Assembly (NCBI GenBank): GCA_009835515.1
Contig: VXXH01000293.1
Location: 1-13,115 of the forward strand
Direction of reading: 5' to 3'
DNA length: 13,115 bases
Source: Candidatus Poribacteria bacterium
Lineage (GTDB): Bacteria; Poribacteria; WGA-4E; WGA-3G
The number at the start of each line of letters is the position of its first letter. Position 1 is the stretch's first letter. Shown piece after piece: positions 7,307 to 9,764 of the stretch. The notes under the pieces were generated by a model that ran no database searches, was not told where the DNA came from, and was given only the letters and a program-made list of their open reading frames with translations. A program made the translations under genes and the position numbers.

Positions 7307-9239
<1,933 letters not shown>

Positions 9240-9357
9240 GTCGTTGAATTCCTCCTTGAGTTTGGCGTAAAAAATTATAGAGAGAGGCGCGAATGCCTCC
9301 GCTTCGTACCTGTTTATCATGAAACGGTAAAATAGAGACCGTCTTCACGTATATCTT

Positions 9358-9375
9358 TAGCAATTTTCGTGCCAA
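9358..9375 (-). promoter_or_regulatory. Sigma-54 (RpoN) promoter of groES-groEL
   Basis: The - strand reads TTGGCACGAAAATTGCTA, an exact match to the -24/-12 consensus TGGCACG-N4-TTGC(A/T) with correct spacing. The GG lies at 9372-9373 and the GC at 9360-9361. Initiation would fall near 9348, leaving a ~109-nt leader before the groES ATG. I found no competing sigma-70 promoter of comparable quality and no TTAGCACTC-N9-GAGTGCTAA inverted repeat. Confidence 0.75.
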
Positions 9376-9416
9376 ACGCCAAACCTGCCAGCGCGTCAGC
9401 GTTACCGCGGAATCCG

Positions 9417-9494
9417 TGACATTTTGGCAGGTTTTTAACCGTGACAAATTGACGCTATCAAAATTAAGGTTGGCGATATTGTGCCATTTTGACA
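9417..9494 (-). promoter_or_regulatory. Three palindromic boxes upstream of the sigma-54 promoter
   Basis: Three 13-mers fit the dyad TGNCANNNTGNCA. On the - strand they are TGTCAAAATGGCA (9482-9494), CGTCAATTTGTCA (9442-9454, one deviation) and TGCCAAAATGTCA (9417-9429). Their centres lie about 140, 100 and 75 nt upstream of the predicted start, the usual range for enhancer-binding-protein sites. A longer inverted repeat, AAACCTGCCA (9381-9390)/TGGCAGGTTT (9425-9434), overlaps the proximal box. They do not fit the NifA TGT-N10-ACA site exactly. Confidence 0.5.
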
Positions 9495-9555
9495 CGAATG
9501 GATGAATAAGGTAGGGCGCGGTTAATGAAGATTAAGAATACGGAAGATTAAGAAT

Positions 9556-9745
9556 AGGACTTACGCATTTCGTTTTAAAGTCCCCCTGATAAGGGGCGGG
9601 GAATGCCCATAAGGCATTCATACCCGGGGAAGCCCACACGGGCTTCATACCGTTGATTCTGATTCTTTAGGGGGTTGAAAGGGAAACCAAATTACCGCTT
9701 TTTGCGCCCTAAATACCTGATATTTGCTCAATTTGCGTAAGTCCT
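9556..9745. mobile_element. MITE with AGGACTTACGCA terminal inverted repeats
   Basis: A perfect 12-bp terminal repeat, AGGACTTACGCA (9556-9567), is matched by TGCGTAAGTCCT (9734-9745), giving a 190-bp element with no gene. Three hairpins follow one another inside: CCCC-tgataa-GGGG (9583-9596), GAATGCC-cataa-GGCATTC (9601-9619) and GAAGCCC-acac-GGGCTTC (9629-9646). The latter two are each followed by ATACC. Terminal repeats with this core occur in MITEs of several bacterial groups, including cyanobacteria. A transposase would have to act from elsewhere. Confidence 0.7.
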
Positions 9746-9764
9746 GAAGAATTTATATTCTCAA

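Follow-up and report, generated by a model that had tools for sequence, protein, structure and literature searches.

The stretch of DNA analyzed here (the window, 13,115 bases) is contig C330 of G000, a draft genome (4.85 Mb in 881 contigs, 78.6% complete) of the Poribacteria, most of which are uncultured; the genome belongs to f1, the families of the phylum being labeled f1 to f10. Its minus strand carries the chaperonin genes groES and groEL (Table 1). The encoded GroEL shares 93% identity with the one encoded by OX639973.1, the chromosome of an "uncultured Poribacteria bacterium" that provides a complete relative (G081); locus L017 of this record is the same as L103 of G081 and was left out of the counts. 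Further upstream, between groES and a Gfo/Idh-like gene, repeated GCATTC and GGGCTTC inverted elements can be seen by eye at 9578–9660, and Rfam gave no match anywhere in the window, these repeats included.

Bacterial heat-shock control is usually described in terms of sigma-32 or of repressors such as HrcA, and groESL is commonly placed under sigma-32 or HrcA/CIRCE; one Bradyrhizobium copy is under NifA/sigma-54. For the window, a preliminary description had proposed that groESL is driven by sigma-54 and an enhancer-binding protein (EBP), on the basis of an exact TGGCACG-N4-TTGC promoter upstream of groES, three dyads centered at about −75, −100 and −140, and the lack of CIRCE. These observations hold. 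The promoter element is the sole exact match within the window, and the sigma-54 consensus is a −24 GG and a −12 GC at the correct spacing (TGGCAC/TTGC). The dyad positions stand as well, given a start near 9348. Two of the three dyads, both upstream of groES, are exact copies of the pattern TGNCANNNTGNCA, the only ones in the window; the middle one is a near match, with one mismatch to the pattern. At its place some relatives have TGTCAATTTGTCA or TGACAAATTGTCA, and several have TGACGATATGGCA or TGATAATATGGCA at the place of the possible fourth site. A scan allowing up to three mismatches confirmed that there is no CIRCE in the window, and no sigma-70-like promoter was found in the region upstream of groES (9236–9764). 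The sigma-54 groESL of Bradyrhizobium is one paralogue only, with the NifA site TGT-N10-ACA. Sigma-54 is common to both cases, but there are no TGT-N10-ACA sites in the window, and NifA was rejected as the activator, in line with the earlier suspicion that the regulator may be a different one.

Table 1. Features of the groESL locus in the window, and positions of related loci in other contigs and genomes.
Feature	Position	Strand	Remarks
groEL (Cpn60, 541 aa)	7307..8932	minus	Pfam PF00118
groES (Cpn10, 96 aa)	8949..9239	minus	Pfam PF00166
groES ribosome-binding sequence AAGGAGG	9251..9257	minus	read from sequence
Predicted sigma-54 promoter TGGCACG-N4-TTGC	9360..9374	minus	−24 GG 9373-9372, −12 GC 9361-9360, predicted start ~9348
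Near match TGACGCGCTGGCA, possible fourth site	9386..9398	minus	7/8, just upstream of −24 element, weak
Proximal dyad TGCCAAAATGTCA	9417..9429	minus	exact, center about −75
Middle dyad CGTCAATTTGTCA	9442..9454	minus	7/8, one mismatch to pattern, center about −100
Distal dyad TGTCAAAATGGCA	9482..9494	minus	exact, center about −140
Group E protein of G000 (L012), AAA domain	G000:C535:5634-6131		
dnaK loci outside f1 with intervening receiver gene	L322, L324, L325, L327, L329, L330, L331, L332		

Judged by the single window, the pair of exact dyads is only mildly unusual (0.23 exact copies expected; 5 of 200 shuffles reach two), so that conservation across the phylum becomes the deciding evidence. 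groES was located in 80 of 84 phylum genomes, and 87 upstream regions, none longer than 500 bases, were read, namely 79 primary ones (L097–L175, one per genome) and eight divergent ones (L176–L183); a third groES of G004 (C96, 40% identical) and a fragment in G060 (C117) were not fetched and lie outside the counts. An upstream region was taken to qualify with a −24/−12 score of at least 10/13 and a dyad of at least 7/8 within 200 bases upstream. Promoter and dyad were found together in 72 of the 78 readable primary regions, against 3 of 1580 dinucleotide shuffles, none of these with an exact dyad; the conservation in relatives that the preliminary description had asked about is thus evident. 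By group, the pair is present in 36/37 regions of the genus, 17/17 of the family's other genera and 19/25 of f2–f10. The single miss of the genus, L123, is unreadable because an N gap interrupts its promoter region, and all 53 readable regions of f1 qualify. The six readable misses comprise all three f4 genomes (L160, L167, L169), which are discussed below, together with L166 (G010), which carries CIRCE, L171 (G009), which has the promoter and dyads that by eye are altered in sequence, and L175 (G001), which has an exact dyad and a weak promoter in only 212 bases of upstream DNA. The conserved dyads start 43–120 bp (once 180) upstream of the promoter. Among the 108 exact dyads of the phylum, the commonest spacing is a start 54 bp upstream (36/108), with a second common one at 117–120 bp (40/108). 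The base after them is C in 96 cases, and the base before is G in 43, A in 36, C in 28 and T in 1. The full dyad form would be GTGNCANNNTGNCAC, a G-N13-C arrangement that we take to resemble Fis-type sites.

With regard to the HrcA/CIRCE repressor system, CIRCE (up to two mismatches) is present at all eight divergent groES copies, which are 48–56% identical and have no sigma-54 site; one of them is the sole groES found in its genome (G003). The primary copies of G010 and G011 also bear a CIRCE-like site. HrcA (PF01628) was detected in 19 of the 84 genomes (f2 2/2, f3 9/9, f7 6/6, f8 1/1, f5 1/2), whereas the search found it in none of the 58 f1 genomes and none in f4, f6, f9 or f10. In the 11 HrcA-bearing genomes of f2 and f3, groES is still preceded by a sigma-54 site, and no CIRCE was seen there even when three mismatches were allowed. 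Sigma-54 control of groES thus coexists with HrcA in several families and did not merely step in where HrcA had been lost. The sigma factor itself, which the preliminary description had left to be looked up, is encoded in G000 (PF04552 in two pieces on two contigs, one piece at a contig end), and RpoN was detected in 79 of the 84 genomes. Among the five in which it was not found is G038, which is 96% complete and has a sigma-54 groES promoter. A second, weaker RpoN-like match was observed in G013–G015, G017, G018, G020–G023, G012, G005 and G001; the open frames have 358–472 aa (174 aa in G001), and in G012 this is the sole RpoN match.

The dyad recurs at other sigma-54 promoters, and these are the promoters of chaperone genes. 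The strong sigma-54 pattern TGGCAYRNNNNTTGCW gives 35 matches in G000 and 58 in G081, vs 6 and 5 for the reversed control. An exact dyad within 300 bases upstream of such a site is found in G081 only at groES, dnaK, clpB and hsp20, and in G000, where some strong sites lie near contig ends and have less readable upstream DNA, only at groES, clpB and dnaK. Taking 0.0044 dyads as expected per sigma-54 site and leaving the chaperone identity of the targets out of the calculation, the binomial chance is 1e-4 for four of about 56 promoters (G081) and 5e-4 for three of 35 (G000). Pfam confirms Hsp20 in G081, and Clp_N/AAA and HSP70 in G000. The dyad alone had to be rejected as a genome-wide marker, as it shows no excess over the reversed pattern (36 vs 37 matches in eight genomes), and it is informative only beside sigma-54 sites. 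At hsp20, promoter and dyad were seen in one genome (G081); a cluster of three sigma-54 matches lies within about 100 bases upstream of this gene (L227).

In family f1, clpB has a promoter and an exact dyad in G000, G081, G046 and G028, the dyad of the last being only about 25 bases upstream; elsewhere, they were found in G014 of f2 (promoter 10/13), G023 of f3, G004 of f5 and G008 of f7, and at the clpB of G025 (f4), an exact dyad accompanies a sigma-54-like site that is weaker (10/13). Outside the Pfam-checked loci, clpB was identified by eye from its N-terminus. No promoter and dyad pair was found upstream of the ClpC-like paralogues L450, L452 and L454, while L453, which is truncated, was left out of the comparison. 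For dnaK, promoter and exact dyad lie directly upstream, 74–210 bases before the gene, in the same four f1 genomes. The sigma-54 promoter is also present at eight loci of seven other families (f2, f3 with two loci, f5, f7, f8, f9 and f10), there 557–762 bases before dnaK, and in all eight a stand-alone receiver-domain gene lies in between (Table 1; by Pfam for three); only the dnaK promoter of G008 (f7) is without an exact dyad among them. Within 1.5 kb, no such promoter was found at the hrcA-linked dnaK copies of G023, G016, G012 and G004, at the other dnaK-like copies read, or at the dnaK of G025 (f4) and G005 (f6); the second dnaK of G002 (L335), which has no start, was outside the comparison. 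A possible further member of the regulon lies in G046: a 239-aa frame without Pfam match (L456:766–1812), preceded by a strong sigma-54 site and by two dyads, one exact and one near.

We think that groESL, dnaK and clpB, with hsp20 where seen, very probably constitute a core heat-shock regulon run by sigma-54; its induction by heat we infer from the target genes only. The presence of rpoN, the conserved promoter and dyads, and the promoters shared with other chaperone genes all argue for the original proposal that sigma-54 and an EBP drive groESL. If true, the activator-gated, ATP-driven sigma-54 system for groESL, dnaK, clpB and hsp20 would be another basic layout of the core stress response, and one whole family (f1) would combine it with no HrcA found. 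It also yields a testable activator and a defined site.

Sigma-54 requires an activator, and the genomes offer several. There are 11 strong EBP domains in G000 and 13 in G081, weaker matches including ClpB. In G081, seven of the 13 EBPs have a strong sigma-54 site no more than about 1.1 kb away, and the six that have none so near are those of groups A–E and L244. Groups A–E were traced in G000, G046, G014, G023 and G025 and, with only some of the EBPs covered, in G008, G004 and G002; the tree contains 94 proteins. L244 and L246, about 15 kb apart in G081, are nearly identical short EBP genes; a strong sigma-54 site lies just downstream of L246 and of other short G081 EBPs, and L244 is without it. 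An exact dyad at EBP genes was considered as a sign of self-control and rejected: in the 24 EBP loci of G000 and G081, it occurs near L244 only, and near neither E locus (L012, L255).

Group E combines, according to Pfam, a Sigma54_activat AAA+ domain (PF00158), the Fis-type helix-turn-helix HTH_8 and a Response_reg domain. Its receiver piece matched at 1e-6 in 18 of 19 further genomes, G009 being the exception. Among those 18, the best hit is E in 14 (one partial), L467 (f5) ties between E and another EBP, and G001, G002 and G010 are nearer another EBP. L473 (f10) and L475 (f9), having another EBP as best hit, are called E-like, and L474 (G010) was not counted as E; the partial L471 has no receiver loop in the alignment. 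The phosphoacceptor Asp of the receiver is replaced (by P, A, Q, S, L or E) in 23 of the 24 rows with an aligned loop, the sole Asp row being L474, whose best hit is another EBP. Lacking this residue, E probably has its activity set by something other than a kinase, and its abundance or the binding of DnaK/GroEL are likely means. The GAFTGA-type loop of the AAA+ domain, which contacts sigma-54, reads GAFSGA in f1 (GSFSGA in G028), GAFTGA in f2, f3, f5, f6 and f8, and GAFTGA or GSFTGA in f7; the E-like f9 and f10 rows have GAFTSA/GAFTNA. Against the NCBIfam models for NifA, NtrC, AtoC, NtrX, ZraR, PspF, NorR and TyrR, L012 and L389 stay below every cut-off listed (for L012 and NifA, 358 bits against 529). 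The closest solved relatives of E by sequence include NtrC-family proteins, ZraR, NifA, FlrA and FleQ. In its architecture, group E resembles FleQ, FlrA and VpsR, which are EBPs with a degenerate receiver; the targets differ.

The groES upstreams of the three f4 genomes (G024, G025 and G026) have no sigma-54 site. Those of G025 and G026 have a sigma-70 promoter, TTGACA-N17-TAGAAT, and are the only two of the 79 primary upstreams whose last 250 bases contain one at up to one mismatch; G024 carries TTGAAA-N17-TAAAAT and, downstream of the −10, a single dyad (9/10). Upstream of the −35, at matching places, G026 has two dyads that fit the 15-bp form at 10/10 (A for G and T for C allowed once each) and G025 has two partial ones (9 and 8 of 10). 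This pattern was relaxed after the f4 sequences had been inspected, and as chance readily gives a score of 8, only the 9s and 10s count as evidence. The sigma-54 promoter of dnaK is also gone in G025. As for E, its loop is gone in 3/3 f4 genomes and in no other row, the open reading frames being kept. Walker B reads LKH, LEH or LRE instead of LDE, and in G024 the Walker A Lys is replaced by Arg too. Substitutions of the Walker B Asp are, however, not confined to f4 (LGE in the f6 row of E, from G005; LNE and LND in the E-like f9/f10 rows), and thus only the loss of the loop is peculiar to f4. In G025, both loop and Walker B are preserved in the paralogues B, C and D. The simplest reading would be that f4 kept the dyad binder while binder and groES promoter both left sigma-54, and this joint departure points to E. 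Family f4 would then be a natural case in which an EBP and its target promoter seemingly left sigma-54 together. The E of f4 perhaps resembles TyrR and the NtrC of R. capsulatus, which are EBP relatives working with sigma-70, although the targets differ.

The activator that would recognize the dyad, unidentified in the preliminary description, has in this way acquired a specific candidate, whose identity we infer; we lean slightly towards group E as the activator of the chaperone regulon. The link of E to the regulon rests on one evolutionary loss, that of f4, and there is evidence against it: the clpB of G025 has its dyad and sigma-54-like site, the E of G005 (f6) has Gly for the Walker B Asp, yet the groES of this genome keeps the sigma-54 site, G009 has a sigma-54-like groES site and no E match at 1e-6, the Walker B Asp is changed (to Asn) in the E-like f9 and f10 rows, and the E of f1 itself reads GAFSGA or GSFSGA instead of GAFTGA.

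The reading that we prefer, with a probability of about 0.6, is that groESL is transcribed by sigma-54 from 9374–9360 through a Fis-type EBP acting at three or four dyads, that dnaK and clpB (and hsp20 where seen) are controlled alike, and that E is the likeliest activator. Besides the points on E just given, the dyad's lack of genome-wide excess and the five genomes without an RpoN match, G038 among them, count against it. A closed sigma-54 polymerase would sit waiting at the promoter. Dimers of E on the dyads at −75, −100 and −140 would assemble a hexamer and reach the promoter by looping, and ATP hydrolysis by E would open it. The activity of E might be set by its abundance or by the binding of DnaK or GroEL, for example through release from the chaperone. 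As a guess, feedback on E may come from the receiver gene that precedes dnaK in families other than f1. Only tentatively would we extend this to the whole phylum, with core heat shock passing via sigma-54 and a dedicated non-phosphorylatable activator that senses protein damage, through a chaperone or directly; f4 would have made it a sigma-70 regulator and swapped the groES promoter, keeping related dyads.

It is possible, if rather doubtful, that the regulon and dyads are real and that the activator is another EBP: group C, which in f1 is a response regulator without adjoining kinase (L008 in G000), the kinase-paired B or D, or A, which is NtrX-like by its C-terminus. B, C and D were found in the compared f1–f4 genomes, except for D in G000, which is incomplete; in G081 no strong sigma-54 site adjoins them, and their loops are of the GAFTGA type or differ from it by a single residue. 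The clpB of G025 would also fit such an activator, as it has dyad and sigma-54-like site although the E of this genome is without loop. However, B, C and D are intact in G025 although its sigma-54 promoters of groES and dnaK are gone. Group A went unmatched in 6 of 24 genomes (G009, G011, G016 and all three of f4). Its absence from f4 had at first made it the favorite, but it was rejected because G016, without A, keeps the dyads, as does the clpB of the f4 genome G025. Much less probable is that a repressor or an ordinary sigma-70 regulator uses the dyads as operators, with sigma-54 contributing little to chaperonin synthesis. The f4 dyads of related layout do adjoin a sigma-70 promoter, that of G024 even lying downstream of the −10, and hence the binder may work without sigma-54; but the groES upstream of the window has no sigma-70-like promoter, the only two in the primary upstreams (at up to one mismatch in the last 250 bases) are those of f4, and the −24/−12 element is very constant. 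Chance resemblance or conserved non-regulatory DNA would suit the mildly unusual dyad pair of the single window, but is hardly credible in view of 72 of 78 upstreams against 3 of 1580 shuffles and of the recurrence at dnaK, clpB and hsp20.

Control of a heat-shock gene by an NtrC-like regulator has a precedent in Myxococcus xanthus, where Ueki and Inouye are said to have described in 2002 the control of lonD by HsfA/HsfB. PMC9109919 describes HsfA as an NtrC-like regulator that receives its phosphate from the hybrid kinase HsfB and acts on lonD, pilY1 and secondary-metabolite genes. The Poribacteria would share with it an NtrC-like regulator on a heat-shock gene, here predicted; unlike with HsfA as described there, the targets are groESL, dnaK, clpB and hsp20, and the candidate has a receiver without phosphorylation site. 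According to PMC8762339, the hrcA-grpE operon of Chlamydia has tandem promoters, one of them of sigma-54, and is thus alike in being a heat-shock operon with such a promoter; it differs in that HrcA still controls the sigma-66 promoter and that rpoN falls on heat shock. The accessible part of PMC4641369 contained nothing that we found on chaperonin control. No literature joining Poribacteria and sigma54 was found, which is weak evidence since subscription papers were mostly outside the search, and the search for Poribacteria, heat shock and sigma gave no title on sigma-54 chaperone control. A study of 2025 (PMC12316311) predicts sigma-54 sites before GroEL, GroES, DnaK, DnaJ, GrpE and small Hsp genes in Bacteroidota and Planctomycetota. 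It has predicted sigma-54 chaperone promoters in common with the Poribacteria, but its available portion gives no shared dyad, activator or HrcA link, and "Poribacter" does not appear in the main text. For GroES in B. thetaiotaomicron it cites a Blattabacterium paper [80].

In our own sample of other phyla (79 loci), a sigma-54 site scoring at least 10 is present in 6 of the 72 readable groES upstreams, and two of these six have near dyad matches, but merely 24–34 bp upstream; the extension of the dyad and sigma-54 groES layout to other phyla was therefore rejected. Two upstreams deserve a separate mention: in L057, from the Planctomycetota, a weak sigma-54-like site (9/13) is preceded at about 110 bases by exact dyads that overlap each other, and L091 has, by eye, a different palindrome upstream.
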